64,000 bases of DNA from Alphaproteobacteria bacterium 46_93_T64 (GTDB taxonomy: Bacteria; Pseudomonadota; Alphaproteobacteria; Sneathiellales; Sneathiellaceae): assembly GCA_002163135.1 (NCBI GenBank), contig MAAN01000035.1, positions 124,001 to 188,000 on the forward strand. The letters are read 5' to 3'. Below, one piece after another: positions 2,724 to 20,376 of this stretch. The translations under genes were made by a program, and so were the position numbers. The notes beneath the pieces were generated by a model. The model was given only the letters and a program-made list of their open reading frames with translations. It was not told the DNA's origin and ran no database searches. Numbering within the stretch: position 1 is the first letter of the stretch; the number at the start of each line of letters is the position of its first letter.

Positions 2724-4118
2724 GTGACTCCAAATTCACAGCGAATAGGTCATATTTCAATCATGCTTAAAACAATTCAGCGAACAATTTTGGGAGAACC
2801 TATCGCCGGCACCCTACCAGCTCGCGTTCAGTCTGCGATCCAGCGTCAGCAGGATCAGTCTGAGGTTCTCATCGCTTGCGTTCAACTGTTCCTTGTAATT
2901 ACATTTTCCATTCTCTACGCACTTTCTCCAAAAACATTTTCTGCAAACACTATGTTTGCGCCTGTCCCCTATGCCCTGGTGGGTTATTTAATTTTTACCC
3001 TCACACGACTATTTTTGGCAGTGAAGTGGCGTCTGCCGGGCTGGTTTCTGTCCCTTTCCGTAATTGCAGACATGTTTTTGCTCATGTTTTTGATATGGAG
3101 TTTTCATATCCAATATCAGCAAAGTCCCGCCTTCTACTTGAAAGCACCGACACTTCTGTACGTCTTCATTTTTATCGCTCTGCGGGCTTTAAGATTTGAT
3201 ATGCGTTACATTTTGCTCGCAGGGGTAACTGCCGCGTCCGGGTGGTTGGTTTTACTTGGATATGCCGTTCATTACGGTGACGGAATGTCTTCAATAACTA
3301 GAGATTACGTGCTGTATACAATGTCCCACAAAATTCTGCTCGGGGCAGAATTTGATAAAGTTATCAGTATTATAGTGGTTACGTTTCTTCTCGCACTTGT
3401 GATTTTCAGGGCAAGACGGCTTCTCGTAAATTCGGTCTCTCAAGCGACGGCTGCAGAAGATTTATCCCGTTTCTTTTCCCCTGAAATCGCAGAACGAATT
3501 ACCCGAGCGGAAGGCTGGATCGAACCCGGAACCGGCCAGACTCGCGAAGCCGCAATTCTTCATTGTGACCTTCAGGGATTTACCAAACTCTCCATGGCAA
3601 AACCGGCGAATGAAGTGATTGCACTGCTTGCTGAATATCAGGCGCGATTGGTCCCGATCATTCAAAAAAATGGGGGCACCATCGACAAGTTTCTTGGGGA
3701 TGGCATATTGGCCACTTTTGGCGCGGCTGTAGAGACTGACCAATATTCAGCAGAATGTTTGAACGCCCTTGAACAGTTGATTGACGAGACACATGTTTGG
3801 GCGGAAGAGCGTAGAGCAATGGGTCTGGACCCTCAGGTTATCCGCTTTACGGCTGCATCCGGCACCATACTGTTTGGCGCGGTCGGAGATAAGAGCCGGC
3901 TTGAATACACGGTTATTGGCGAGCCCGTAAATCTGGCGGCTAAATTGGATAAACATGCAAAAATCGAGAGAGCTCAAGCTCTCGTCACACTCCATTGTTT
4001 TGAAGAGGCTCTATCCCAAGGATACAAACCCACCAAGGGAAGTGATATCAGGGCTGCACGAGATGTTGGCGGTGTAACCGGCCTTGTTGATCTGGTAGTG
4101 CTAAGTAACGCAGAATAA
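2724..4118 (+). CDS. Membrane-bound class III adenylate/guanylate cyclase
   Basis: A 464-residue protein with about six hydrophobic segments (residues about 50-235) followed by a class III cyclase catalytic domain (about 270-440). The metal-binding aspartates are present in HCDLQGFT (D282) and KFLGDG (D326), and the conserved Asn is in VNLAA (N403). The position that normally holds the transition-state Arg four residues later is Lys (K407). The product is presumably cAMP or cGMP from the cytosolic face. The start is uncertain: GTG at 2724, or in-frame ATG at 2763, which removes 13 residues. A cNMP-binding protein is encoded at 18488, but a functional link is only inference. Confidence 0.85.
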   Translation: MTPNSQRIGHISIMLKTIQRTILGEPIAGTLPARVQSAIQRQQDQSEVLIACVQLFLVITFSILYALSPKTFSANTMFAPVPYALVGYLIFTLTRLFLAVKWRLPGWFLSLSVIADMFLLMFLIWSFHIQYQQSPAFYLKAPTLLYVFIFIALRALRFDMRYILLAGVTAASGWLVLLGYAVHYGDGMSSITRDYVLYTMSHKILLGAEFDKVISIIVVTFLLALVIFRARRLLVNSVSQATAAEDLSRFFSPEIAERITRAEGWIEPGTGQTREAAILHCDLQGFTKLSMAKPANEVIALLAEYQARLVPIIQKNGGTIDKFLGDGILATFGAAVETDQYSAECLNALEQLIDETHVWAEERRAMGLDPQVIRFTAASGTILFGAVGDKSRLEYTVIGEPVNLAAKLDKHAKIERAQALVTLHCFEEALSQGYKPTKGSDIRAARDVGGVTGLVDLVVLSNAE

Positions 4119-4148: not shown

Positions 4149-5333
4149 TTACTTATACGGATCAGCGGCATCCCGCAGACCATCCCCAAGGAAGTTAAAA
4201 GCCAATACGACGATGATCACCGGCACAACCGGATACATCAACCACGGTGTTGTCGCTACGGCGTTGATATTCGTAGTCTCGTTCAATAATACGCCCCAAG
4301 ATGTAATAGGTGGTCGCAACCCAAGCCCTAAGAAAGACAGCGCGGTTTCTCCCAATATCATACTGGGAACCGCGAGGCTGGCACTGGCAATCAAATGAGA
4401 GGCGAACGAAGGCATCAAATGCCGTCCAATTATTCTAGCAGGGCTAGCTCCTGTAAGCTGGGCAGCAGTTGTAAAATCTTCTTCTCGAAGCGATAAGAAT
4501 TTCGATCGCACGGCACGGGCCAGGCCCGGCCAATCCAGGAGACCCAAAATAACTGTCAGGCCAAAAAATACCCATATTGGAGACCATGTTACTGGTAGGG
4601 CGGCTGACAGAGCAAGCCAAAGCGGGAGTTGCGGTAGCGATTTAAGGAGCTCAATGGTTCGCTGAATAACGTTATCAATCCAGCCACCGTAATACCCAGA
4701 TATCCCTCCAAGAATAATACCAAGGGTAAAACTGATAATGATACCAATTAGGCCAATAGTGAGCGAAATTCGTGTTCCATAAATGATGCGAGAAAAGATA
4801 TCTCGACCGAGCCGATCTGTCCCCAACCAAAAAAAGCTGGCACGCCGATCATCAGCTGCGCAGACAAGGTGCTTATCAGTCTCAAACAGGTTCCACATAC
4901 TATAGGTGTCACCACTACAGAGGAACCGAAGTGGATATATACGATTGGTGTCAACGCGATATTCACGCTGCAAAGTTTCAAGGTTTAGCCGCTGCCGATA
5001 TCCATAGATAAACGGTGCTCTTAACTCCCCTTCATGAAAGACATGAATTGATTGCGGAGGTGCAAAAATGAACCTCGTATTGCGACTATGAAGTTCATAC
5101 GGCGCCAGAAATTCTGCGAAAATAATCGAGATATAAAAGAAAAGCAGTATAAGGCCACTGATCACTGCAACACGGTGGCGGCAGAACTTCCACCACATCA
5201 TCCGCCATTGCGAGGCCATATAATATTTTTCTTGTTCTGCTGTCAGTTTTACGACTGACTGCGGATCAAAGGGCTCAGTTGAATGCCAATGTTCAAGCTT
5301 CGTATCTTTGCCGCCGCCAAAGGATTCACTCAT
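4149..5333 (-). CDS. Peptide-type ABC transporter permease (DppC/OppC/YejE family)
   Basis: A 394-residue inner-membrane permease. An N-terminal cytoplasmic segment and first membrane helix (about residues 55-75) are followed by an enlarged periplasmic insertion (about 80-185) holding two cysteines. The BPD_transp_1 domain then has five helices. The EAA loop that contacts the ATPase is readable as AAQLTGASPARIIGRH. It overlaps the partner permease by 4 nt (ATGA), indicating translational coupling. It is the last gene of the importer set. The YejABEF-like assignment rests on organisation, so the substrate (peptide or other) is inferred. Confidence 0.88.
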   Translation of the reverse strand: MSESFGGGKDTKLEHWHSTEPFDPQSVVKLTAEQEKYYMASQWRMMWWKFCRHRVAVISGLILLFFYISIIFAEFLAPYELHSRNTRFIFAPPQSIHVFHEGELRAPFIYGYRQRLNLETLQREYRVDTNRIYPLRFLCSGDTYSMWNLFETDKHLVCAADDRRASFFWLGTDRLGRDIFSRIIYGTRISLTIGLIGIIISFTLGIILGGISGYYGGWIDNVIQRTIELLKSLPQLPLWLALSAALPVTWSPIWVFFGLTVILGLLDWPGLARAVRSKFLSLREEDFTTAAQLTGASPARIIGRHLMPSFASHLIASASLAVPSMILGETALSFLGLGLRPPITSWGVLLNETTNINAVATTPWLMYPVVPVIIVVLAFNFLGDGLRDAADPYK

Positions 5334-6358
5334 TTCGTCGCCCCCCCGGTCAAACGTATTCTGGGATCAAGCATAGCCAACAATATATCAGAAACGAACA
5401 CTCCAATAACAGTTAGTAAGGCCAAGAACATTAGGAACGATCCAGCAAGATACTGATCTTGACTTCTCAATGCCTCAAGAAGCATTGGTCCCGCAGTGGG
5501 CAAACTCAGCACAGTACTCACAATAACCGATCCCGAAATCACATCCGGCAGCAAATTTCCGATATCTGCAATAAATGGATTTAAAGACATGCGGATTGGA
5601 TACTTTACGAGTGTTTTAAGACGCGGCACCCCTTTAGCCCGTGCTGTAGTTACATATTGTTTTTGTAATTCGTCCAGCAAGTTCGCACGAAGGCGTCGGA
5701 TCATAGCAGCGGTACCGCTCGTCCCTATCACAATAACCGGGATGATCATGTGATTCAAAATAGAAATTACTTTATCAAAACTCCATGGCTGATCAAGATA
5801 CTTCTCATCCATGAGGCCACCAATAGAAAGACCAAAATAGAAATTCGCATAATAAAGCAATACCATCGCCAGCAAGAAATTCGGGGTCGCAAGCCCCAAA
5901 TATCCGACAAGTGTAAAGCCGTAATCTCCAATAGAGTATTGACGGGTTGCAGAATACACTCCGATGGGGAAGGCAACGATATATATGAAAATTACCGTCG
6001 AGAAATTGATCACGAACGTCAGCAACATTCGGTCCCCAAGGACTTCTTTTACTGGCAGATCGTAGGCGAACGAATGTCCCCAATCCCCTTGTAATAATCC
6101 AGAAAATCCATTGGGCCCGGGCCAAAAGCCCATCCAGATCGCATATTGTTCGATCATGGGCTTATCCAGTGAGAATTGTTCCCGATAGAATGCAATCTTG
6201 GCCGCGGCAGAAGCGCTTTCCCCTTGTGATTTCAATTCCTGTAATTGGTTGGACAGATAATCACCCGGAGGCAACTGGATAATCACAAATGTCAGGATAC
6301 TGACGACCAGAAGTGTTGGGATCATTACCAGCAGTCTATGTACGAAATAGCTGAACAT
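5330..6358 (-). CDS. Peptide-type ABC transporter permease (DppB/OppB/YejB family)
   Basis: A 342-residue permease with an N-terminal membrane helix, a periplasmic loop and a BPD_transp_1 core. The EAA segment reads YVTTARAKGVPRLK, as in DppB/OppB proteins. It starts six bases after the stop of the solute-binding protein gene and overlaps the next permease gene by 4 nt. It pairs with the 4149-5333 permease to form the membrane channel of the importer. Confidence 0.9.
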   Translation of the reverse strand: MFSYFVHRLLVMIPTLLVVSILTFVIIQLPPGDYLSNQLQELKSQGESASAAAKIAFYREQFSLDKPMIEQYAIWMGFWPGPNGFSGLLQGDWGHSFAYDLPVKEVLGDRMLLTFVINFSTVIFIYIVAFPIGVYSATRQYSIGDYGFTLVGYLGLATPNFLLAMVLLYYANFYFGLSIGGLMDEKYLDQPWSFDKVISILNHMIIPVIVIGTSGTAAMIRRLRANLLDELQKQYVTTARAKGVPRLKTLVKYPIRMSLNPFIADIGNLLPDVISGSVIVSTVLSLPTAGPMLLEALRSQDQYLAGSFLMFLALLTVIGVFVSDILLAMLDPRIRLTGGATK

Positions 6359-8284: not shown

Positions 8285-10173
8285 TGTTTCAACTCCTCGC
8301 GTGTTGTTCCTTCATGCACCCGAACAAAATGTCCCTCCCCAAGATCCATCATCATAGGTCGCGTGCTGTCATTGATCGTAAATGGCGCACGCCAAGCAGA
8401 GGGATCAGATGCTTTTTCGGACACAAGATGACTAAAATCCAGTTTTCGATCGGGACTTGGTTCTGGGACAGCGGCCAACAATCTTTTTGTATAAGGGTGT
8501 ATTGGATCTTTAAACAAAATCTCTTTTGGCGCAGTTTCCACGAGACGTCCTTGGCACATCACAGCAATTCTATCCGCAATATAATCCACAACCGCCAAGT
8601 TATGGGAAATGAACAAATATGTAAGTCCCAGTTCTTTTTGAAGATCTTTTAACAAATTCAGAATTTGCGCCTGAATTGAAACATCTAATGCTGAAACAGG
8701 CTCATCACATATAAGCAGATCAGGCTTTAGGGCCAATGCCCTAGCGATACCTATGCGCTGACGCTGTCCACCAGAGAATGAATGGGGGTATCTTCGCAAA
8801 AAGCGTGCATCAAGACCCACAAGGTTCATCAGCTCCATTACCGTTTCTTCGCGTTCCTTCTGAGTTCCAATCTTATGGATAATCAGTGGCTCAGAAATAA
8901 TATCAAACACGGTCATTCTAGGGTTCAGTGACGAAAACGGATCCTGAAAAATAAATTGAACTTTACTGCGATAATCAAACAGTTCTGAGTTATTGAGGGA
9001 TAAGACATCCAGATCTTTGCCCCGATCATTATAGGTCACTGTCCCGTTAGATGCAGTTACAGCCCGCAAAATCAATTTAGACAACGTCGTTTTGCCGCAA
9101 CCGGATTCCCCCACAAGTCCCAAACATTCTCCGGGCTTTATGAAAAAACTGACCTGATCAACCGCTTTGACATTACCTGCTGGTTTACTCCCGATAATAG
9201 TCGTTTTCCGGGTAGAAAATTCTTTAGTTAAGTCTGTAACCTCAAGAATTGGTTTTTCATCTTTATCATTGAACTGCCGAGGGTTCGCTTGCGCTAAAAA
9301 TCGACTGTCATGATCGCGTATTATTTCGCGAATAGGGGTCAGTCGCTCCCCATCTTTCATATCAAATCTTGGAACCGCTTTTAAAAGTGCTCTCAAATAA
9401 GGATGGCGTGGATCATCAAAGATCTCTTCTAGAGTTCCCTGCTCCATGACCTTACCGTGATACATCACAACAACTTCATCGGCCATACTTGCGACAACAC
9501 CCAAATCATGAGTGATAAGCAAAATCGCCATCTTCAGTTTTTTCTGCAAAGATTGCATCAAGTCGAGGATCTGCGCTTGAATAGTAACATCCAGAGCTGT
9601 TGTCGGCTCATCAGCGATTAAGAGAGCAGGATTGCAGATCATCGCCATGGCGATCATAGCGCGCTGACGCAAGCCACCAGAGAGTTCAAACGGATAAGTG
9701 TCTACAGCAGCTTCTGGGTTAGGAAATCCAACCAGCCGTAGCATTTCCTGGGTAATTTCAAGACCTTCTTTTTTGCTTTTTTTATGATGCAGATGCAACG
9801 CTTCTGAAATTTGGTTACCAATAGTGTGAAGCGGCGATAACGACGTCATGGGTTCTTGGAAGATAATGGTAATTCGGCCGCCTCGAATTTCCCGCATTTC
9901 ACGGCTTTCTGGCTTCAATTTGGCGATATCATAAAAATTACCAGGCTTCTCTGGATCAAAGAACAGGATCTCACCTTTGGTGATATGAGCGGCCTTTGGC
10001 AGGATCGACATAATCGCCTGACTAATAACGGATTTACCAGAGCCGGACTCGCCGACAAGCGCGACTGTCTTACCTTCCGGAACCCGGAAGCTAACCCCTT
10101 CAACCGCCTTTACAACGCCTTCTGAGACCCTGAACTCAATCTTCAGATCACGCACCAACAACACATTGGACAT
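8281..10173 (-). CDS. Fused dual-ATPase of a peptide-type ABC importer (YejF-like)
   Basis: A 630-residue protein with two complete ABC domains in one chain, equivalent to DppD plus DppF. The first domain has Walker A GESGSGKS, signature LSGGLRQ and Walker B LLIADEP. The second has GESGCGKT, FSGGQRQ and LLICDEP. Each domain ends with an oligopeptide-transporter C-terminal extension (HPYLRALL and HPYTKRLL). All catalytic residues are intact. The ATG overlaps the stop of the small membrane protein gene by one base (TAATG), and the stop overlaps the solute-binding protein gene by 4 nt. Confidence 0.92.
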   Translation of the reverse strand: MSNVLLVRDLKIEFRVSEGVVKAVEGVSFRVPEGKTVALVGESGSGKSVISQAIMSILPKAAHITKGEILFFDPEKPGNFYDIAKLKPESREMREIRGGRITIIFQEPMTSLSPLHTIGNQISEALHLHHKKSKKEGLEITQEMLRLVGFPNPEAAVDTYPFELSGGLRQRAMIAMAMICNPALLIADEPTTALDVTIQAQILDLMQSLQKKLKMAILLITHDLGVVASMADEVVVMYHGKVMEQGTLEEIFDDPRHPYLRALLKAVPRFDMKDGERLTPIREIIRDHDSRFLAQANPRQFNDKDEKPILEVTDLTKEFSTRKTTIIGSKPAGNVKAVDQVSFFIKPGECLGLVGESGCGKTTLSKLILRAVTASNGTVTYNDRGKDLDVLSLNNSELFDYRSKVQFIFQDPFSSLNPRMTVFDIISEPLIIHKIGTQKEREETVMELMNLVGLDARFLRRYPHSFSGGQRQRIGIARALALKPDLLICDEPVSALDVSIQAQILNLLKDLQKELGLTYLFISHNLAVVDYIADRIAVMCQGRLVETAPKEILFKDPIHPYTKRLLAAVPEPSPDRKLDFSHLVSEKASDPSAWRAPFTINDSTRPMMMDLGEGHFVRVHEGTTREELKQ

Positions 10174-10700
10174 TAGTTGCTCTTTTCCGAGTTGTTTGCA
10201 TCGGTATGATCATTGAAAGTTGTATCAAGGCCAAGAGCTTGCATATTGCGGACCGTTGCCGGATCCAACGCCAAGCCCTTCTCTCGTGCCTTTTCCGCAC
10301 AAATACTCACCAATTCCCAAAAATCGGAGATGGTAGACTCTACCCTCAATCGATCACCCCTGCTTTTCAGCCTAAGTTGCATCCACCCCATTTCCCCGTC
10401 ACGACGTGTCGAGAAATACGCGAGTTTCAACTCCTCAAGCTCTTCCCATTGTATTAATTTCTCCCTCAGGCCAGTCACTTGTATCGCCCGATCCCCTAGG
10501 ATTATTGACATCCTTTTTCGACCATATGCCCGCACTCCGTAAAACGCGAACAGACACAAGAAACTTCCCAATATATAAACAATGACAGATGATGGGCGGA
10601 ACAACAAGAGGGGAAGAACTGATAAAGTTACTCCCGTTCCTGAACGCCAATACTCTTTGGTGATTTCTTTAGCGGAATATGAGTATGTCTTTACCATCAT
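10173..10700 (-). CDS. Small membrane protein with a PH-like C-terminal region, function unknown
   Basis: A 175-residue protein not recognised as a named family. Two hydrophobic segments (about residues 25-40 and 42-57) precede a basic stretch (GRKRM) and a beta-rich cytoplasmic region that resembles bacterial PH-like domains: alternating strands and a WEELEELKL element. The tail is acidic and Asn-rich. It sits between the deacetylase-like gene (16-nt gap) and the ATPase gene (1-nt overlap), so it is probably co-translated with the importer. The PH-like call is weak. Confidence 0.65.
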   Translation of the reverse strand: MMVKTYSYSAKEITKEYWRSGTGVTLSVLPLLLFRPSSVIVYILGSFLCLFAFYGVRAYGRKRMSIILGDRAIQVTGLREKLIQWEELEELKLAYFSTRRDGEMGWMQLRLKSRGDRLRVESTISDFWELVSICAEKAREKGLALDPATVRNMQALGLDTTFNDHTDANNSEKSN

Positions 10701-10716: not shown

Positions 10717-11499
10717 TTAAGGGAAATCTTTTAAATCGAATTCTTCGATCACAGACAGGGCACCGGGAAGCGTCAGAAAACGCACAGCCTTATGTGAATT
10801 TACAAATGAAAAAAACTTGTAGGTAATCTCCCATAAAGGCTCATCATACATTATGTGGTGGGATAAAAACCCGGTCGGCTCGCGCGTATCAACACGGCCC
10901 AGTCGCCTGTCACACAAATGATCACATGCCATTTTAAGAATGTCAGCTTCTGCCAGCGTACTTCGACCATTTTTCCAATCAACAGGATCGATATGCGTAT
11001 TAACTTCTGCTAGTCCCTGCACTGGGACGGCAGATGCTCTAGGTTTGTATCTTGATATTCCGTGAAACCCCAACTTGGCGATATCTGGCAGTAAAGCCTC
11101 TCCCACCCGGTTCCATGGCGGCACTAGAAAAGGATAAAAATCGCCCTCAAATAGCGTTTCCATCCGAGCCTTTCCAAGCGTCAGTTCCGCCACCATCTCT
11201 GTTATCGATCTAGAAGCTGGAAATTCTGATTTTTTTTCGCCTTCTTTTGCATGGGATGTATGGGTGACCCCATGTTGCACGAGATGGCAACCGTCCAGAT
11301 CATCCGCAATGTGGGGATCTACATTGTCCGGGATCACAGCCAAAGTCAGCGGGATATCCAGCCGATGTCGCATTTCAAGAAGCCTATCAAAAGCATTGGT
11401 TGGCTCGTTCAAATCATCATCACGCCACCAGAAAGTAGCTGTGATACCAGCCTCTTGCCAAAGATCGAGTTCGTCTTTCAAAGCATCCCAAGACGCCAT
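10717..11499 (-). CDS. Polysaccharide-deacetylase-like protein
   Basis: A 260-residue protein with a WWRDDD segment near residue 22 that matches the metal-binding Asp motif of NodB-type deacetylases. HGVTHTSH near residue 75 fits the His motif and LVPPWNR the third motif. There is no signal peptide, so it is probably cytosolic and acts on a nucleotide- or lipid-linked sugar. The ATG at 11499 is chosen because it follows GGAGA and overlaps the upstream stop as TAATG; a GTG at 11517 would add six residues. Its neighbours are glycosyltransferases. Confidence 0.75.
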   Translation of the reverse strand: MASWDALKDELDLWQEAGITATFWWRDDDLNEPTNAFDRLLEMRHRLDIPLTLAVIPDNVDPHIADDLDGCHLVQHGVTHTSHAKEGEKKSEFPASRSITEMVAELTLGKARMETLFEGDFYPFLVPPWNRVGEALLPDIAKLGFHGISRYKPRASAVPVQGLAEVNTHIDPVDWKNGRSTLAEADILKMACDHLCDRRLGRVDTREPTGFLSHHIMYDEPLWEITYKFFSFVNSHKAVRFLTLPGALSVIEEFDLKDFP

Positions 11500-12656
11500 T
11501 ATCTCTCCGCCAACCAAGATTTCAGCATAGTTACAGTTCTGTCTGCCCCGTCCACATCGATGGTAGCAGATGAGGGCGGCCCTGCAAGGGCAGCATTTAC
11601 TTTAACCGCGAGCTCTTTGGCATCCAATCCATCTTCTTCAGCAATTTGTAAAACCCCTTTTTGCGCGAGTAACTCTGCACGTATGGTTTGCTCAGTCTCA
11701 ACACCCCCAGCATAGGGAACAATTACGGCACGGCATTTCGCATGCAGTATTTCCATTACCGTGTTATAGCCGCCCTGACTAATGGACAAGGCGCAGTTCA
11801 TCAGCAAAGTTGTAAAATCTTTTCGGGCACGTTCGACAATGACACCCTTGGGCGCTAACTCCAGTAAGTCCTGATAGATACTATCCTCAACCGTTGCGCC
11901 AACCATCAAACGCCAAGTCAGATGGCTGGCATTTGACTGCGCCCGAGCTAACATTGCGATTTTAAGTAAATCCGTGCCCACGGCACCACCGCCGCTTGAG
12001 ACAATTACTTCATTGCTTCCAGGTGCCAGCCTGTCGCCCTTCACACCTGTCCGGTCGACCACATACCCCGTATACACGATCTTATCCGAGATCCGTTTTG
12101 TATGTGGAAAGGTTTTATCAAGTGAAATCAGTTCCGGATCGCCATGCACAACAACTTTATCGAAGTACTTTTCTACCAGTGCCAACATCTCATCGTTACG
12201 GCCGGGTTTCATTTGCCCCACCAGAATATCACGAACTGAAGATATGATCAGTGGGGGCGTGTCAGAGGCTTTTGCTGCCTCTAACAGCGGCAGTAATTCG
12301 AACCGCATTTGCCGGCGACCAAAAGGAAACAACTCAGTGATCAAAATATCAGGCGCTACATCGTGGTAGATCTGCAGCAGTTTTTCACTGCGCATTTGGC
12401 GCCAACTGTCATCAATATCGTTGCCATTTTCATCTACCAATTGCTTGAAAAACAAATCCGTCGCGCGCGTCGCTGGCAGTTGCTCAATTTTCGCGTCGCC
12501 AAAATCCATATCAATTTTGTGGCCCCCAGAGACAATTGTCACATCAAAACCGCCTCTCGCCAGATTCCGGCACAATGTCGCTGTCCGGCGCAGATGGCCT
12601 ATCCCCAGCAAATGCTGCACATAAAACAATATTCTAGGGGCAGATTTTTGATCCAT
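11499..12656 (-). CDS. Glycosyltransferase of the GT28/MurG-like type
   Basis: A 385-residue protein with an N-terminal GIGHLRR motif typical of the predicted glycosyltransferases of COG4671. A C-terminal GT-B half carries VIVSSGGGAVG and the donor-binding SQGGYNTVMEIL region. There are no membrane segments. The start overlaps the stop of the phosphatase gene by one base, and its own stop overlaps the deacetylase-like start by one base. It probably transfers a nucleotide sugar to an envelope or exopolysaccharide acceptor; donor and acceptor are unknown. Confidence 0.82.
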   Translation of the reverse strand: MDQKSAPRILFYVQHLLGIGHLRRTATLCRNLARGGFDVTIVSGGHKIDMDFGDAKIEQLPATRATDLFFKQLVDENGNDIDDSWRQMRSEKLLQIYHDVAPDILITELFPFGRRQMRFELLPLLEAAKASDTPPLIISSVRDILVGQMKPGRNDEMLALVEKYFDKVVVHGDPELISLDKTFPHTKRISDKIVYTGYVVDRTGVKGDRLAPGSNEVIVSSGGGAVGTDLLKIAMLARAQSNASHLTWRLMVGATVEDSIYQDLLELAPKGVIVERARKDFTTLLMNCALSISQGGYNTVMEILHAKCRAVIVPYAGGVETEQTIRAELLAQKGVLQIAEEDGLDAKELAVKVNAALAGPPSSATIDVDGADRTVTMLKSWLAER

Positions 12657-13237
12657 TACGCCACATCCAGTTCGATATTTACAGCTTCAGCATGGGGCCG
12701 GCCCAACTCGTCAATCATGAAAAGATGTCCCGCATTCCAATTAAAAGGAACAGGAGATTTGTCTGTCATATCCCAGTTATACGCAAGGGATTTAATAGCT
12801 CTAATCACCCCTTTATGTGTCACAGCGATGGTCGGTGTTTTTAGCTCTTGCAGAAAAGGTAGCAATCTATTTTGAACATCCGCAGGGCTCTCGCCTCCTT
12901 CGGGGCACATCTGAAGTCCTTTGGCTTCGTTATCCTTCATGGCGCTCCCATATTGGGCACGAAGCTCACGGATCGTGTATCCCTCCCATTTTCCCCAATC
13001 CATCTCAATCAATCTGTCATCAAGCACCAGATCAGTTGCACCCAAAATTTGAGCAGTTTGCTCAGCGCGTTTAAGGGGGCTCGATCGCCAATGAAAATGA
13101 GAAAACTGTTCAGGAATTTCACAAGTTTCCAGAATTTCCCGGCCTTCGCTACTTAGTGGAATGTCACGGCGTCCTTGCAGTTTTTTTTGGGCGTTCCACT
13201 CGGTTCTTCCGTGGCGGATAAGGAGTAAAGGGATCAC
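12656..13237 (-). CDS. Histidine phosphatase family protein (phosphoglycerate mutase-like)
   Basis: A 193-residue protein beginning at GTG 13237. The phosphohistidine motif RHGRTEWN is at residues 8-15, SSPLKRAEQTA gives the second Arg, the acid/base Glu lies in EMDWGKWEG, and the second His is in VTHKGVIRA. All catalytic positions are present. It lies between two glycosyltransferase genes with a 4-nt overlap upstream and a 1-nt overlap downstream. It may dephosphorylate a sugar phosphate in the glycan pathway rather than act in glycolysis. Confidence 0.82.
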   Translation of the reverse strand: MIPLLLIRHGRTEWNAQKKLQGRRDIPLSSEGREILETCEIPEQFSHFHWRSSPLKRAEQTAQILGATDLVLDDRLIEMDWGKWEGYTIRELRAQYGSAMKDNEAKGLQMCPEGGESPADVQNRLLPFLQELKTPTIAVTHKGVIRAIKSLAYNWDMTDKSPVPFNWNAGHLFMIDELGRPHAEAVNIELDVA

Positions 13238-14334
13238 AATATTACCTTTTCAACATGAGATTTCAGAGCAGAGCTTGTGGCTTTAAGGCTGCGCTCTTCG
13301 CGTACAAAACGTTGACCTTCATCTCCCATTTTCAATCTGAGAGCCGGATCATCAATCAACGTTCGAACATGATCCGCGAATATCTTCATATCCCCCACAG
13401 GAGACAGCAGGCCTGTTCGGCTATCCATCACGACATCAGGAACACCGCGTAGATTGCCGGCGACAACAGGCAACCCTGCGCGCGCGGCCTCCAAAAATGC
13501 CATCCCGAACGCTTCACCATGAGCAGGCCAGACATATATATCAGAGCGCTCGTAAGTTTTAATCAACTCCGCCTCCTCCAACCTACCCAAATAGGTTATC
13601 CGATCCCCAAATCGCGCAAATAACTTTTCAACATCGGCTCTTTTCTCGCCATCCCCCGCGATTAGCAACTGCCAATCCTCTCCCTCCAGATACTCCAGCA
13701 CCTCTGCCAATTGACAGAAAGATTGAAATTTATCGCCGTCCCGCATCATGGCAACAGACAACAAATTTACTTTTGATCTGGAGCCTCTCTCGATAACGCG
13801 TTCAGTTGTTAAGTTTTCAATGAAAGGGGGCAGGTAAACGAGCGTCTCGGAAGATTTCGCCAACGGCTCAAGACACGCACCATCCAGCCGAGTCATATGA
13901 AATATTCGGTCTGCATTCGAGATGGTCGTAGCTGCTGCGCTATATCCGCTAGCCCAAGGTCCGCCGTCTTGTTTTGGCGCATGGCTCGCCTCAGCCACAA
14001 AATAAGGAATATCCAGTGCATCAGATACAATCGGACCTATCCAATCCGGCGCTTTATGATAAAGGTGATATGAAAACCAGAGGGCTGGTCTTTCATCGGG
14101 CCCTGCCCCCTCGTATTTTGCGATGAGCTTTTGAGCTTCTTGATGAGCAGATAAACGCACCTTTTCCTGAAACTCTGCATCTCCGTTTTTGTCAAAGCTC
14201 CTGAAGGAGGAGGCAAGCTCCACCTCGTAACCCGCGTTTGAGAGCGCCTGCATGAATAAGCGTGCCATCCTCCGATCCCCGGAAGGGGTCGGATGATCTG
14301 GCGATTTCATCGGCGCATAGAACGCGATCTTCAT
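13234..14334 (-). CDS. GT4-family glycosyltransferase
   Basis: A 366-residue GT-B protein. The N-terminal PSGDRRMARLF region is the acceptor-side loop typical of GT4. The donor-site helix includes AHGEAFGMAFLEAARAGLP, with the conserved EX7E pattern, followed by a GLLSPVGD segment. No membrane helices are seen. It is coupled by 4-nt overlaps to the upstream GT4 gene and to the downstream histidine phosphatase gene. The sugar donor cannot be deduced. Confidence 0.87.
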   Translation of the reverse strand: MKIAFYAPMKSPDHPTPSGDRRMARLFMQALSNAGYEVELASSFRSFDKNGDAEFQEKVRLSAHQEAQKLIAKYEGAGPDERPALWFSYHLYHKAPDWIGPIVSDALDIPYFVAEASHAPKQDGGPWASGYSAAATTISNADRIFHMTRLDGACLEPLAKSSETLVYLPPFIENLTTERVIERGSRSKVNLLSVAMMRDGDKFQSFCQLAEVLEYLEGEDWQLLIAGDGEKRADVEKLFARFGDRITYLGRLEEAELIKTYERSDIYVWPAHGEAFGMAFLEAARAGLPVVAGNLRGVPDVVMDSRTGLLSPVGDMKIFADHVRTLIDDPALRLKMGDEGQRFVREERSLKATSSALKSHVEKVIL

Positions 14335-15584
14335 CCAACGTTTCCTTTAGGAAGCTTCACGGACAAACGCTCAATCCAGTTTTGGGCGTCAAATTTACGT
14401 CGCAGCTTCTCATCTCCTTTTAACGAAAACTGAGCTCTTTTTTGAGGATCCCTAATTAACTCTTCCAAAGCCACTCCAAGAGCTTCCGGGCTTCGTTCTG
14501 GTACCAATATCCCTGTTTCTCCGCAATCGATCAATTCTGGAATGGCTGAAACCCTTGTTGAGGCAACCGCTGCCCGCTGACTTTGGGCTTCCATCAGGAC
14601 ATTCGGTAATCCATCACGATCGCCATCCTCCGCAATCCGGCTTGCCAGCACAAAAATATCTGCCTCGCGCAAAGCCTCAAGCACCATTTTTTGGGGTTGT
14701 GCGCCTTTCCAATGGATTTTGTCTGAAATCCCGAGATCATCGGCCTGCTTCTTGAGATCCTTCAACAAGGGACCACCGCCGATATGTGTGAAATGCCACG
14801 CCAGATCGACAGGCAGACTAGCCAGCGCCTTCAAAAGATCGTCATAACCCTTTTTCTTAACCGCCCGGCCCACAGACAATATGCAAACTGAATTTTCTAA
14901 ACTCGAGCCATCCGAAGTATGTTTCTTGTCTAACGGGGCGGTAAAACGGGATAAATCAAGTCCGTGATATAAAAGTTCTACCTTGGTCGGCTCTTCTGCC
15001 AGATCCCGCAGATGCGATACATTAAAGGATGTGCAGGTTACAAGCCACGCCACGTCCTGCAGCTTTTCTGCAAGTTCCCAATCCGGGGAAGTATAGATAT
15101 CCTTCGCATGAGCAGAACAGCTCCACGGCAAGCCCGTAATCATTGCAGCATATCGCGCGACTGACGCCGGCGTATGAAGAAAATGTGCATAAATATGCGT
15201 GGTGTCCGCAGGAAGTTCTGCCGCAAGAACCAAGGCCTGTCCAAACCGACGGACACGGTTTCTGGACTTGTCTCTCGAAAAATCACGCATCCATGTTGAG
15301 AATGCAAGATCATACCCCGGCAGATTTCGAACCCGACGCCAAGCTTTTAATACGCGGACGGGTTCATCGTGCAAATACTCGGGTAAATAGGTAACTGGAG
15401 CCTTGATTTCGTCATGGATAGGGTGACGAGACGTATCGGTTGGATGCCGAAGGGAAATCAAATGGAGGCGATGCCCGCGTTTTTCCAGCGCCAACAATTC
15501 TTGCGCAATAAAAGTTTCCGACAACCGCGGATAACCTTTCAAGACAACAGTGATGACTTCCGGCTGGGTATTTTCTTGCGACAT
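14331..15584 (-). CDS. GT4-family glycosyltransferase, colanic-acid-type
   Basis: A 417-residue GT-B enzyme. The N-terminus has GYPRLSETFIAQEL, a hallmark of colanic-acid WcaL/exopolysaccharide GT4 proteins. The donor region contains SVGRAVKKKGYDDLL and SRIAEDGDRDGLPNVLMEAQ. The ATG at 15584 is preferred over the in-frame TTG at 15590. It heads the ten-gene minus-strand run, and its promoter should lie in the 15585-15811 interval shared with the divergent ABC-type gene. Confidence 0.87.
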   Translation of the reverse strand: MSQENTQPEVITVVLKGYPRLSETFIAQELLALEKRGHRLHLISLRHPTDTSRHPIHDEIKAPVTYLPEYLHDEPVRVLKAWRRVRNLPGYDLAFSTWMRDFSRDKSRNRVRRFGQALVLAAELPADTTHIYAHFLHTPASVARYAAMITGLPWSCSAHAKDIYTSPDWELAEKLQDVAWLVTCTSFNVSHLRDLAEEPTKVELLYHGLDLSRFTAPLDKKHTSDGSSLENSVCILSVGRAVKKKGYDDLLKALASLPVDLAWHFTHIGGGPLLKDLKKQADDLGISDKIHWKGAQPQKMVLEALREADIFVLASRIAEDGDRDGLPNVLMEAQSQRAAVASTRVSAIPELIDCGETGILVPERSPEALGVALEELIRDPQKRAQFSLKGDEKLRRKFDAQNWIERLSVKLPKGNVG

Positions 15585-15811
15585 AAACAATTAAACTCGG
15601 CAATTCAAAATTAATTTAGTAAGCGCTCAGGCCGCTAAATTCAACCTGCAATCTTTATAATTTACCTCTCAGGTTTGCCCACCAAACAAGATTTGTATAA
15701 AGCCCTACAAATTTGTTTCTTGCTAGGAGCGCAACAACTATGGGAGAGTATAAAAATAACTATGCGCTAAATATTAAACAAAAATCCTAGAAACAGGGCG
15801 GGCAATACTGC
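15585..15811. other. Divergent intergenic region between glycosyltransferase and ABC-type operons
   Basis: About 227 AT-rich bases with no supportable gene. It must hold the promoters for both divergent operons. A TATAAA-like element occurs near 15749, but no well-spaced -35 box could be paired with it by eye. Confidence 0.45.
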
Positions 15812-18463
15812 ATGGAAAACAGTATCTACAAATATATTTTGGCTCACAGCAAGAAGCAGCAAATTATACTTACCCTGCTGTCCTGCGCATCCTTTCCGTT
15901 TCTTTATTATTATTTAGAACTTCCCAAAATCATTATCGATCAGGCAATTCAGGCCAAGGATATCGTTTTTCCCGTTGAATATATGGGATTTTCCATAGAT
16001 CAGCAGGCTTTTCTATATGTTGCCGTTTGTATATTTTTAGTTCTTGTCGTTATAAACCAAGGCTTTAAGTACGTCATCAACGTCTATCAGGGCATTACCG
16101 GAGAGCGCATGCTGAGGCGCCTTCGATTTCAACTTTATAGTCACATTTTACGTTTCCCATTGCCCATTTTTCGCAAGAAAAGCTCAGGCGAATTGATCCC
16201 AATGATCACGGCGGAAGTAGAACCCCTTGGAGGGTTTATTGGTGAAGCCTTTGCGCTGCCCGTTTTTCAAGGTGGGTATCTGGTTGTTATTATGGCGTTT
16301 TTGTTGATCCAGAACGTCTATATGGCAATGGCTGCCATTGCACTTTATCCACTGCAAGCCTATTTCATTCCGAAAATGCAGAAAAAGGTAAACTTGCTTG
16401 GAAAAGAACGTGTCCAACGCGTTCGGGCGCTTTCTGAAAAAATTGGTGAAACCGTTGCTGGCGTCCAGGAAATTCATATCCACGATACTTCCAATTACTT
16501 GCGGGCCAATTTTTCACAGCAACTTGGACGTATCTATAAGGTTCGCTACAGCATTTACCTGCTAAAATTTGTTATCAAATTCCTCAACAACTTCATTCAA
16601 CAATTAGGCCCCTTTTTCTTCTACGGCCTTGGCGGCACCATGGTAATTGAAGGAAATCTTGAAATTGGTACTTTGGTCGCAGCTATTTCCGCCCATAAAG
16701 AGATGGCGGCCCCGTGGAAAGCACTTCTGTCCTATTACCAGCGGCGTGAAGATGCCCGCATCAAGTATGAGCAAGTTGTTGAACAATTTGAACCCGCGGG
16801 CCTACGTACTGAGGCTCATCAAAGCACGGAACCTGATCCTTTGCCGTTGCTTTCCGGTGAAATGATTGGATCGAACATCATCCTTTCAGATGATACTGGG
16901 TCAGCTCAGCTAGAAGGTTTAAATATTAGATTTGGGCTGGATAAGAAAATAGCCATCGTTGGTGCAGCGGGTTCTGGCCGCGAAGCTTTGACACAAGTGC
17001 TTGCCCGCCTGATTGACCCTGACAAAGGGCGTATTTCCGCCGGTGACTTAGATATGTTGCAAGCCCCTGAAGCCATAACCGGTCGCCGGATTTCTTATAT
17101 CGGACAGTCCGGATACATTTTTAACGACACTATTGGCGAAAATCTGTTTTTTGGTCTGAAACATCGCCCTCTGCAAGACATTGAAATCCACGACGAGGAA
17201 ATGCAAGAATTTCTGAACAATGACAAAGCTGAGATAAAATTGACCGGCAATAGCCCTCATAATTTCACTGCCGACTGGATTGATTACGCAAGTGCTGGCG
17301 TAACGAACCCTGAACAATTGGATGTGCGCGCCATCGATGTATTGCAAATGGTGGAACTTGGGGATGACGTGTATCAGTTTGGACTTAGAAGCACTCTAAA
17401 TCCACAAGAGGATGTTGAAGAAGCCAGTCTTATACTTGCAGCTCGACGGCGTTTCTTTGAAAAACTAGAGGCAGATCCTGCACTTGCAAATCTGGTAGAG
17501 GCCTTTGAGCAGGATAAATATAATACCAATGCAACTCTGGGTGAAAACCTGTTATTTGGGACCCCGGTTGGCAACAAATTTGATATGGAGCGCCTCGCTG
17601 AAAACAGTTACGTCCAAAAAGTAATTGAAGAAGCCGACCTTACAAGAGCCTTCCTTGAGATGGGATATCATGTCGCCACGTTGATGATTGAGCTGTTTGC
17701 TGACCTGCCACCAGATCACGAATTTTTCCAGCTATATGGCTTCATCAGCTCAGAAGAGCTACCTGAATATCAAGCCATAATTAGCCGTGTCTCTATGGAA
17801 AATGTCGATCAGCTTCGTGAAGAAGATCGGTTGCGCTTTATGTCGCTGCCTTTCAAAGTAATCCCATCACGGCACCGACTCGGTGTGATTACGGATGATA
17901 TTCAGGAAAAAATCGTCCAGGCACGAAAACAATTCGTAGATCATTTACCACATGACTTAGAGGGCAGTATCGCATTTTTCGATGCCGACGCTTATAATGC
18001 TGCTGCGAATATTCAGGACAATATCTTGTTTGGCAAGATCGCCTATGGATATGCGCAAGCCAACGAAAAAATCGGCGCACTTTTGGCGTCTGTTGTTGAA
18101 GAGATGGAACTTAAACGGGCGATTATAAAAGTCGGGTTGAATTTCAACACTGGAGCTGGCGGTGCGCGACTTAGTGAAAACCAGCGGCAAAAGCTCTGTA
18201 TTGCTCGTTCAATTATCAAAAAACCACAATTGCTTGTTATTAATCAAGCCATTGCCTCTTTTGATCACAGAACACAACAACGGTTACTTGAAAATATTTT
18301 AGAAGAATTTGAAGAACGTAGTGTTATCTGGTCCCTAGAGAAACCAGAAATGGCCTATTTGTTCGATCAAATTGTCCTTATTAATGGTGGTGTAGTCGCG
18401 GAGACAGGTGACTATGACCAATTGCAAAAAAGTAGCGAGCAATTTCGAATGCTAACCGCATAA
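15812..18463 (+). CDS. ABC transporter-like membrane protein with a catalytically degenerate, expanded ATPase domain
   Basis: An 883-residue protein with an exporter-type membrane domain (residues about 1-330, six helices) and a C-terminal ABC domain. Every catalytic position is altered. Walker A is GAAGSGRE (384-391, Lys to Arg at 390). The signature is LSENQ (787-791). Walker B ends VINQ (Asp to Asn 811, catalytic Glu to Gln 812). The H-loop His is Glu 843. About 400 residues separate Walker A from the signature, against roughly 100-120 usually. This stretch repeats an ENLLFG-type element three times (438-448, 577-583, 733-741). The frame is intact. It probably binds nucleotide poorly or not at all and may act as a regulated scaffold or channel. 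The cNMP-binding gene follows by 24 nt. Confidence 0.85.
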   Translation: MENSIYKYILAHSKKQQIILTLLSCASFPFLYYYLELPKIIIDQAIQAKDIVFPVEYMGFSIDQQAFLYVAVCIFLVLVVINQGFKYVINVYQGITGERMLRRLRFQLYSHILRFPLPIFRKKSSGELIPMITAEVEPLGGFIGEAFALPVFQGGYLVVIMAFLLIQNVYMAMAAIALYPLQAYFIPKMQKKVNLLGKERVQRVRALSEKIGETVAGVQEIHIHDTSNYLRANFSQQLGRIYKVRYSIYLLKFVIKFLNNFIQQLGPFFFYGLGGTMVIEGNLEIGTLVAAISAHKEMAAPWKALLSYYQRREDARIKYEQVVEQFEPAGLRTEAHQSTEPDPLPLLSGEMIGSNIILSDDTGSAQLEGLNIRFGLDKKIAIVGAAGSGREALTQVLARLIDPDKGRISAGDLDMLQAPEAITGRRISYIGQSGYIFNDTIGENLFFGLKHRPLQDIEIHDEEMQEFLNNDKAEIKLTGNSPHNFTADWIDYASAGVTNPEQLDVRAIDVLQMVELGDDVYQFGLRSTLNPQEDVEEASLILAARRRFFEKLEADPALANLVEAFEQDKYNTNATLGENLLFGTPVGNKFDMERLAENSYVQKVIEEADLTRAFLEMGYHVATLMIELFADLPPDHEFFQLYGFISSEELPEYQAIISRVSMENVDQLREEDRLRFMSLPFKVIPSRHRLGVITDDIQEKIVQARKQFVDHLPHDLEGSIAFFDADAYNAAANIQDNILFGKIAYGYAQANEKIGALLASVVEEMELKRAIIKVGLNFNTGAGGARLSENQRQKLCIARSIIKKPQLLVINQAIASFDHRTQQRLLENILEEFEERSVIWSLEKPEMAYLFDQIVLINGGVVAETGDYDQLQKSSEQFRMLTA

Positions 18464-18487
18464 TTGCCGTGAAAAGGAGTGTGTAAA

Positions 18488-18958
18488 TTGAGCTTGAGAG
18501 AAGAAGTAGAAACCCTTCGGCAAATCCCGCTATTTGCCAAAGTCGATCCATCAAAAATAAAGCTACTCGCTTTCACGTCTGAACGGGTAACGTTTCAACC
18601 AGGCGAATTACTTTGTAAACAGGGTGATATGGGTGATGCGGCTTATGTCATTATTAGCGGACAAGCCGATGTGTTAATCGACACACCTAACGGCTCAATT
18701 CGTGTTGCTACATTCAAGAAAAATGATGTGGTTGGCGAAATTGCGATCCTTATCAACATCCCAAGAACGGCGACAATCAAAGCTTCGTCCGAGCTCACGG
18801 CACTCCGCATAACAAAAGATTTGTTCTTGCGCATGATTTCCGAATTTCCAGAAATGGCTGTTGAAATGATGCGCGTTCTGGCGGAACGTTTGGTACGAAC
18901 AACAGCAGAGCTCCAAAAAGCTCAAGAGAGCCTTCAAAAAGCGGAAAATGACGACTGA
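18488..18958 (+). CDS. Cyclic-nucleotide-binding domain protein
   Basis: A 156-residue single-domain protein with a CAP-family cNMP fold. The phosphate-binding cassette VVGEIAILINIPRTAT retains the Glu and Arg that contact the cyclic phosphate. A C-terminal helix ends in a short coiled stretch. There is no DNA-binding domain, so it is not a Crp-type regulator. TTG at 18488 is chosen because AAGGAG (18473-18478) sits nine bases ahead; a GTG at 18479 would be too close to that site. The location directly behind the degenerate ABC-type gene suggests it is a ligand-sensing partner of that protein; this is inference. Confidence 0.83.
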   Translation: MSLREEVETLRQIPLFAKVDPSKIKLLAFTSERVTFQPGELLCKQGDMGDAAYVIISGQADVLIDTPNGSIRVATFKKNDVVGEIAILINIPRTATIKASSELTALRITKDLFLRMISEFPEMAVEMMRVLAERLVRTTAELQKAQESLQKAENDD

Positions 18959-19047
18959 TTGAGTAAACCAACTCTGGGCTTTTCTTATCATTCATGCTGT
19001 AAGTAAGGTCTTTAGTTTTTGTCAATATATATTTTGAAACAAACTTG

Positions 19048-20376
19048 ATGACTTCGTACATTAACCGTTGGATAAGTTCAGCCGCAATTTACCGTGACCC
19101 AAGAGTTATGGTTATTCTTTTTCTGGGTTTCTCTTCAGGGTTACCATTGGCATTGACGGGAACTACTCTTTCCCTGTGGCTGAGGGAAGAAGGGCTCACC
19201 CTTACCTCCATCGGTTTATTTGCAAATGTAGCAACACCCTATGCCCTTAAATTTTTGTGGGCGCCGCTCGTTGATAAAATGCCAATCCCAATTCTCAGCC
19301 GCTTACTTGGCCGCCGTCGTGGCTGGCTAGTTCTCACACAAGTTTGCCTGATCCTTTCCATTTTTGGGCTGAGTACAACTAATCCTGTAGATAACATTGG
19401 TTTGACCGCGTTTTTCGCCTTTCTGGTAGCTTTCTCGTCTGCCAGTCAAGACATTGTCATTGATGCTTACCGCGTTGAAATTAGTGACGAAAAAAGTCTT
19501 GCTGCCGGCGCGGCCGCAATTGTTTTCGGATATCGAATTGGTATGCTGGTCTCTGGTGCTGGTGCCCTTTATTTGGCATCGACGGTTAGCTGGCAACTCA
19601 CTTATGCCATCATGGCGGCTATGGTTTTGATCGGCGTAATAACGACTTTCATATGCAGGGAACCTGAAAATTATGCCCCCTCTAGGTCAGCAGGGTTCAA
19701 TGCAGAGACACCACGCTTTGATGCTTATCTAACATGGATTAAAGAAGCCGTTATTGATCCGCTGGCAGACTTTGCTAAACGACCAGGCTGGGTAGCTATC
19801 CTGTTATTCGTCATGTTGTATAAGTTTGGAGACAGCTTGGCGGGCGTTATGAGTACGCCCTTCTTCTATGATCTCGGCTTCACAAAAATAGAAATTGCAA
19901 ATGTAAGTAAAGTCTATGGGACTGCAGCGACATTTTTAGGACTTGCGCTTGGGGGCTGGCTTATGGCGGCAACAGGCCTATACCGAACCTTATGGATTTG
20001 CGGTTTCTTACAATTGGGGTCAAACCTGATGTTTGCTGTGCAGGCTATGGCTGGAAACGATGTCACAGTCCTCGCAGCAACTGTTGGTATTGAGAATTTG
20101 GCTGGAGGCATGGGGACTGCGGCCTTTGTCGCGTACCTTTCCAGCCTTTGCAATGTTTCCTATACCGCCACGCAATACGCGCTGCTCTCATCATTCATGG
20201 CGACAGCGCGCATCTGGTTCTCCTCTCCGGGAGGCCTACTCGCTGAAAGCGTCGGCTGGGTCGAATTTTTTCTTCTAACAACTGTGGCAGCCATCCCCGG
20301 TCTAATGCTACTATGGTGGCTAACAAGGCCGGGAACTAGAACCCGGACCGGAGAGACTGAAACCAATACTGTGTAA
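19048..20376 (+). CDS. MFS transporter of the AmpG (muropeptide permease) family
   Basis: A 442-residue protein with about twelve membrane helices. The N-terminal FLGFSSGLPLALTGTTLSLW and the following KFLWAPLVDK and GRRRGW are AmpG hallmarks. AmpG imports anhydromuropeptides from the periplasm for cell-wall recycling. The ATG at 19048 is preferred over the TTG immediately before it. It could follow the cNMP gene in the same transcript (89-nt gap). Alphaproteobacteria often carry several AmpG paralogues, so the exact substrate is not assured. Confidence 0.83.
   Translation: MTSYINRWISSAAIYRDPRVMVILFLGFSSGLPLALTGTTLSLWLREEGLTLTSIGLFANVATPYALKFLWAPLVDKMPIPILSRLLGRRRGWLVLTQVCLILSIFGLSTTNPVDNIGLTAFFAFLVAFSSASQDIVIDAYRVEISDEKSLAAGAAAIVFGYRIGMLVSGAGALYLASTVSWQLTYAIMAAMVLIGVITTFICREPENYAPSRSAGFNAETPRFDAYLTWIKEAVIDPLADFAKRPGWVAILLFVMLYKFGDSLAGVMSTPFFYDLGFTKIEIANVSKVYGTAATFLGLALGGWLMAATGLYRTLWICGFLQLGSNLMFAVQAMAGNDVTVLAATVGIENLAGGMGTAAFVAYLSSLCNVSYTATQYALLSSFMATARIWFSSPGGLLAESVGWVEFFLLTTVAAIPGLMLLWWLTRPGTRTRTGETETNTV

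Follow-up and report, generated by a model that had tools for sequence, protein, structure and literature searches.

In many Alphaproteobacteria, the gene for a degenerate ATP-binding cassette (ABC) protein lies next to, or is fused with, the gene for a small cyclic-nucleotide-binding (CNB) protein. The pair is described here from a stretch of 64,000 nt of Alphaproteobacteria bacterium 46_93_T64 (contig MAAN01000035.1, positions 124,001-188,000), referred to as the window. The physical pairing of the two genes is well supported, and its conservation beside a cyclase and genes for surface sugars suggests a switch, not described before, through which a second messenger would act on a membrane protein. 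We hold, with slightly better than even confidence, that the ABC-fold protein is controlled by a cyclic nucleotide, works independently of ATP, and serves the assembly of surface glycan. An initial annotation, made from the sequence of the window, had singled out the pair; what goes beyond it is an insert of about 300 amino acids within the ABC protein, the natural fusions, and the presence of a cyclase and an oligopeptide-type importer in the conserved neighbourhood.

Pairing of the CNB and ABC genes

A search of alphaproteobacterial genomes with the ABC protein gave matches at E values up to 1e-60 in 97 of 289, and the matches from a phylum-wide draw, which overlaps this class sample and is not independent of it, came almost exclusively from Alphaproteobacteria. 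By the test that the initial annotation set for itself, rare adjacency in other genomes would have refuted the idea of a module. The opposite was found. Among the 94 loci of the class sample, the CNB gene lies directly downstream of the ABC gene on the same strand in 77, and in nine more the CNB domain is fused to the C-terminus of the ABC protein. The genome encodes five PF00027 proteins, yet 86 of the 94 loci have the two adjacent or fused, and so the pairing is beyond chance. One of the remaining eight loci is cut by the end of a contig, and seven have no CNB gene nearby, one of these being a paralogue that consists of a membrane domain alone. Of the six full-length ABC genes without a CNB neighbour, four come from genomes that encode the CNB protein elsewhere (56-64% identity), in each case divergent from the GT28-like gene that opens the glycan cluster and that adjoins the ABC gene in other loci; this open reading frame (ORF) was identified by eye, through a shared N-terminal motif.

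The phylum-wide draw gives the same picture: where the fetched stretch of a full-length homologue continues beyond the ABC gene, the CNB gene is nearly always next to it or fused with it. The exceptions are two truncated stretches from the fused lineage (L175, L176), two distant paralogues (L183, L184), and one gene for the membrane domain only (L182). The fused forms cluster on one side of a tree built with FastTree, a pattern compatible with a single fusion or a single fission of the two proteins. Natural fusion and co-inheritance are strong evidence that the ABC and CNB proteins work together, which on these grounds seems very probable.

The CNB gene is listed among the ORFs as 18479-18958, beginning with GTG, but its orthologues align from a TTG at 18488 (MSLREEV...), preceded by the motif AAAAGGAG. 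From this start, the gap behind the ABC gene is 24 nt, as the initial annotation had it. The protein, at 156 aa, has PF00027 as its sole Pfam domain (E 9e-20; 70.9 bits against a cut-off of 27.5) and therefore no DNA-binding domain, such as the C-terminal helix-turn-helix that defines CRP/FNR regulators. Nor are CRP-type sites (TGTGAN6TCACA) in excess in the window, where 15 were found against 30 expected from shuffles. The phosphate-binding cassette had been called intact, and the alignment of 106 family members agrees: Gly83 is invariant and Arg93 is present in all 106, with Glu84 in 101, Thr or Ser at position 94 in 101, and Ala95 in 102. The Glu that would contact ribose and the Arg that would contact phosphate are thus kept across the family; the fused members that have diverged furthest show drift in the cassette. 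To judge by these residues, the ligand site looks alive.

Among solved structures, the CNB protein comes closest to the CNB domains of cGMP- and cAMP-dependent kinases; CRP-family regulators and the SthK channel rank next. Its ligand is likely to be cAMP or cGMP. The RTA motif of the cassette resembles cGMP-selective kinase sites. Bacterial CNB proteins with Ser or Thr at that position of the cassette bind cAMP too. Clr of Sinorhizobium meliloti is reported to bind both nucleotides (PMC10127613). For these reasons no choice between cAMP and cGMP is made here.

The ABC protein and its insert

The ABC protein has an exporter-type membrane domain (PF00664 at residues 68-293, E 9.2e-22), while the Pfam match to its nucleotide-binding domain (NBD; PF00005, ABC_tran) is split into two stretches. 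Among NCBIfam models it comes nearest to exporters of the MsbA/HepA type, yet falls far under all cut-offs. The initial annotation had considered the ABC domain dead, and comparison with the family bears this out. In the window protein, Walker A reads GSGRE (for GxGK[ST]), the signature LSENQ (for LSGGQ), Walker B VINQ (for LLDE), and the H-switch has E in place of H. When 111 homologues are aligned, only seven retain the S/T of Walker A that coordinates Mg, and 89 have E or D there; of the two signature glycines, one is retained in 12 and the other in 7, while the Walker B Asp survives in 16, the switch His in 31, the Q-loop Gln in 34, and the catalytic Glu in 53. The Walker A Lys position fares differently, with K in 57 and R in 50 (one or the other in 107), so that the GSG[KR] shape of the P-loop is kept. 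Six canonical ABC proteins from the same genome as the window, aligned with the family as controls, have these motifs intact or nearly so. The window protein and most of its homologues, then, lack the combination of GxxGxGK[ST], LSGGQ, Walker B DE, and H-switch expected of an ATP-driven exporter, and we consider it probable that the ABC protein hydrolyses no ATP.

The second peculiarity lies between Q-loop and signature. The two are 355 residues apart in the window protein and 342-359 apart in most family members tested (425 in one), against 56-57 in the controls. Within the insert, the blocks VELFADLPPDHEFF and HRLG are near-invariant in the family, and profile comparison indicates that part of the insert is a repeat of the first portion of the NBD helical subdomain (residues ~565-620 against ~723-777, E 1.6e-11, 31% identity). 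Because the losses and the insert are common to 111 relatives, they are old and retained features; judged from the alignment, the catalytic losses are ancestral rather than a local accident. In the class sample the gene is full length and open in nearly all genomes with matches, at about 30-80% identity. Two distant paralogues (L183:54-2643 and L184:0-2628), which have no adjacent CNB gene, match mainly the insert (residues ~500-815), and might reflect an older role for it.

An AlphaFold model of the whole protein (mean predicted local distance difference test score, pLDDT, of 72) is good over the NBD and poor in part of the membrane region. It superposes on exporter-type ABC structures, SAV1866 and TM287/288 among them, and the NBD core matches the ComA NBD at 1.9 A over 239 residues. 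The top matches to the whole model, ABCC1, SUR2, and the ComA NBD, have Z scores nearly tied with those of many exporters, and so demonstrate an ABC fold and nothing beyond it.

Some relatives have dispensed with the NBD altogether. One is encoded by plasmid pP70_a of Phaeobacter inhibens (L188:7764-9068, 434 aa), and others by L150, L182, and a series of plasmid matches (H61-H69); the Roseobacter plasmid form has 36% identity to residues 1-340. The existence of such proteins supports the idea of independence from ATP, though the P. inhibens gene lies in a copper cluster, flanked by a plastocyanin/azurin-like gene and cytochrome c genes.

Cyclase, importer, and glycan genes around the pair

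The class III cyclase noted in the initial annotation is present (Table 1). Both metal-binding Asp residues, the substrate Lys, and the transition-state Asn align, but Lys occupies the position of the transition-state Arg (VNLAAKLDK), a reason for caution about the predicted activity. Its N-terminal part looks membrane-embedded. An orthologue occurs in 41 of 83 genomes: less than 25 kb from the ABC gene in 19, far away on the same contig in four, and on other contigs in 18. Where both genes are on one contig, therefore, the cyclase is near in 19 of 23 genomes. A second cyclase subfamily, with 27% identity to the window cyclase over the catalytic part, directly adjoins the ABC-CNB pair in three loci (L100, L105, and L113) and lies 10-13 kb from the ABC gene, as calculated from coordinates, in at least 17 rhizobial plasmid records. 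The recruitment of two unrelated cyclase subfamilies to the same pair speaks for a real signalling link, and the suggestion that the cyclase belongs to the circuit gains by it. Chance proximity was considered as well; it is rejected for the orthologue by the 19 of 23 genomes, but not for a single genome such as this one, with 14 class III cyclases in 4.0 Mb. Alphaproteobacteria often have a dozen or more of these enzymes. A nearby cyclase is not obligatory, and with 14 in the genome the cyclic nucleotide could come from elsewhere.

Glycosyltransferase genes lie upstream of the ABC gene and divergent from it, in keeping with the claim that the pair diverges from genes of glycan biosynthesis. 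Conserved neighbours were counted over 95 loci, and the counts for individual genes are given in Table 1. A further GT28/MJ1255-like gene of about 420 codons (e.g., L094:8856-10118) is divergent from the ABC gene and adjoins it in 60 of these loci; it is absent from this place in the window. In Rhizobium etli (p42e) and Rhizobium johnstonii (pRL11), the genes for a cyclase, the importer ATPase, the substrate-binding protein, two permeases, three glycosyltransferases, and the ABC and CNB proteins are all on one strand. The CNB protein encoded there has 57% identity to that of the window, and the substrate-binding protein 47%. In both S. meliloti and R. johnstonii the rhizobial cluster has a DUF3095 gene as a neighbour (L190:1766-2968 and L235:21257-22483). 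On the other side of the pair in the window, on the same strand, follow genes for an AmpG-type muropeptide transporter (19045-20376) and an acyl-CoA ligase (20409-21926), neither of them among the conserved neighbours.

Table 1. Features of the pair and of its surroundings, in window coordinates
Feature	Position	Strand	Remarks
Class III nucleotide cyclase, 464 aa, hydrophobic in its N-terminal part	2724..4118	+	PF00211, E 1.5e-8; conserved neighbour in many lineages
Oligopeptide-type ABC importer permease	4149..5333	-	Same set in R. etli and R. johnstonii
Oligopeptide-type ABC importer permease	5330..6358	-	Same set in R. etli and R. johnstonii
Family 5 substrate-binding protein, 639 aa	6365..8284	-	Orthologue <35 kb from ABC gene in 47 genomes
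Intact double-NBD importer ATPase, 630 aa	8281..10173	-	Same set in R. etli and R. johnstonii
Uncharacterized protein of 175 aa; no match in Pfam	10173..10700	-	
DUF2334-like protein (weak, below cut-off)	10717..11517	-	Conserved in cluster
GT28/MurG-like glycosyltransferase	11499..12656	-	Same place in 54/95 loci
Histidine phosphatase family protein	12656..13237	-	57/95 loci
GT4-type glycosyltransferase	13234..14334	-	61/95 loci
GT4-type glycosyltransferase (EpsE/WcaL-like, below cut-offs)	14331..15590	-	65/95 loci
Degenerate ABC exporter-fold protein, 883 aa	15812..18463	+	Membrane domain, residues ~1-330; pseudo-NBD, ~345-445 plus ~770-883; insert of ~300 aa from Q-loop to signature
Degenerate Walker A, residues 382-393, IVGAAGSGREAL	16955..16990	+	K to R, S/T to E; alignment
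Insert region, residues 441-772, Q-loop to signature	17132..18127	+	Blocks VELFADLPPDHEFF and HRLG; duplicated YN..A...(E/D)N(L/I)LFG segment; alignment
Degenerate signature, residues 785-793, ARLSENQRQ	18164..18190	+	Canonical LSGGQ; alignment
Degenerate Walker B and D-loop, residues 807-820, LLVINQAIASFDHR	18230..18271	+	D to N, catalytic E to Q; alignment
Stand-alone CNB protein, 156 aa, TTG start, C-terminal helix after domain	18488..18958	+	Pfam, orthologue alignment
Phosphate-binding cassette, residues 83-97, GEIAILINIPRTATI	18734..18778	+	Intact

A proposed switch, its rivals, and known systems

In the model we favour, the ABC and CNB proteins would be subunits of a single inner-membrane complex for signalling. 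The ABC protein would keep its exporter fold, probably as a homodimer, and its pseudo-NBD, given the residue losses throughout the family, would no longer run an ATPase cycle. The CNB protein would dock on the cytoplasmic side, on the pseudo-NBD; since some lineages have the two as one chain, with the CNB part at the C-terminal end of the ABC protein, the stand-alone form is very likely a detachable regulatory subunit. A cyclic nucleotide, supplied by the class III cyclase whose gene is often found close by, would bind the CNB subunit and alter the pseudo-NBD dimer and the insert, so that the membrane domain shifts its state, by analogy with CNB-gated channels and with SUR and CFTR. The output may be the control of a step in the building or export of the surface glycan made by the divergently encoded glycosyltransferases. 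This last element is suggested by the conserved neighbourhood, and a glycan-related output seems to us a little better than an even guess. That the pair represents a new class of second-messenger-gated membrane proteins, with the fold of an ABC exporter but no use of ATP, a CNB subunit as the switch, a cyclase of its own, and a role in surface-glycan assembly, is a more tentative idea, to which we give somewhat less than even weight.

Several observations weigh against this model. The AlphaFold model is of middling quality over the membrane part, and the insert taken alone (model mean pLDDT 72) finds no match in Foldseek better than E 0.6. No orthologue of the window-type cyclase was found in 42 of the 83 genomes, and the glycan linkage is missing in some lineages, e.g., Ruegeria. 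The pseudo-NBD may, like SUR, bind ATP without hydrolysing it, since the Walker A Lys and the catalytic Glu of Walker B each survive in about half of the homologues. Also, one known CNB domain of an ABC protein, that of HetC, has a ligand of another kind, as discussed below.

Perhaps the ABC protein belongs to a heterodimeric exporter as its weak half, with an intact exporter encoded elsewhere providing a working ATPase site and the CNB protein regulating the pump. Exporters of this heterodimeric kind, with a single degenerate site, are common (TM287/288, BmrCD, and MsRv1273c/72c; PMC12038006) and are among the closest folds, and canonical exporters are present in the genome. In three genomes, moreover, a second ABC-like ORF, possibly a canonical exporter, adjoins the degenerate ABC gene (L172:1-1480, L180:4085-5636, and L181:5065-5392); it might serve as the partner there, but the arrangement is not general. 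Against this, no gene for an intact exporter or a consensus NBD is among the conserved neighbours over the 95 loci, though a partner could be encoded elsewhere. Both half-sites, furthermore, are broken, for the Walker A S/T and the signature glycines are lost together, and the insert lies in the helical subdomain, beside the site where a partner NBD would pack. Known degenerate partners in exporters usually retain Walker A. We give this explanation a small chance of being right.

A similarly small chance goes to a pseudo-NBD that binds ATP or ADP without hydrolysing it, in a complex that would sense adenine nucleotides as well as cyclic nucleotides, like SUR in K-ATP channels. The preserved shape of the P-loop speaks for it, and so does the rank of SUR2 and ABCC1 in the structural comparison, with the near-tie noted above. 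However, the E or D at the Mg position and the absence of the Walker B Asp from most members speak against ordinary binding of Mg-ATP.

Slightly less probable again is that the CNB protein is merely structural, or has a different ligand such as ppGpp, and that the nearby cyclase is a coincidence. The CNB domain of HetC binds ppGpp rather than cAMP (PMC10986499); one cyclase nearby is not very rare in a genome with so many, and half of the genomes have no orthologous cyclase. The essentially invariant Arg and Glu of the cassette and the best solved matches, kinases dependent on cGMP and cAMP, argue for a cyclic nucleotide, and the clustering of two unrelated cyclase subfamilies with the pair argues against coincidence. 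Finally, a decaying relic carrying its neighbour along would explain the lost catalytic motifs, but the conservation data reject it almost entirely, the frames being open, full length, and constrained across dozens of families that share the same losses and the same insert.

If the favoured model is right, the pair would matter in two ways. To our knowledge, few direct bacterial targets of cAMP or cGMP are known beyond transcription factors, and the pair is a concrete and widespread candidate for a non-transcriptional effector. It is also a natural experiment in what an ABC fold does without ATP hydrolysis. Public annotations hide it: they list the ABC protein like any other ABC transporter ATP-binding protein, and in some cases call the CNB protein a Crp/Fnr regulator. 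No description of an ABC-CNB module was found in open-access text, a weak absence, since the locus tags used for S. meliloti and R. leguminosarum were guessed.

Parts of the arrangement have parallels. The bacteriocin-type transport-associated CNB proteins of NHLM clusters (TIGR03896) are also encoded with an ABC transporter, but they span about 317 positions and belong to another type of cluster; the window CNB protein scores 42.5 bits against the model's cut-off of 161.05. TM287/288, BmrCD, and MsRv1273c/72c share the exporter fold and degenerate NBD motifs, but their consensus half is encoded next door, and they have neither the insert nor a CNB protein. The ABCC proteins SUR1, SUR2, and CFTR use an ABC fold as a regulator or gate rather than a pump; this is an analogy and not a matter of membership, for they are eukaryotic, retain one nucleotide site or more, carry two NBDs in each chain, and lack a CNB partner. 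HetC of Nostoc PCC 7120 is an ABC exporter containing a peptidase; its N-terminal CNB domain is essential to it, and the ligand found for that domain is ppGpp (PMC10986499). Like the window pair, it couples a CNB domain to an ABC protein of exporter fold and depends on that domain for its function. It differs in its C39 peptidase, its working and essential ATPase, and the N-terminal place of the CNB domain; the pair in the window has no peptidase, a broken ATPase site, and a CNB domain that is C-terminal or separate, and so is not of the HetC type. In channels of the SthK and MloK1 type, the membrane part is a K+ channel and not an ABC exporter fold, but there a CNB domain directly switches a membrane protein, and the CNB domain of SthK is itself a sequence match of the CNB protein in the window.

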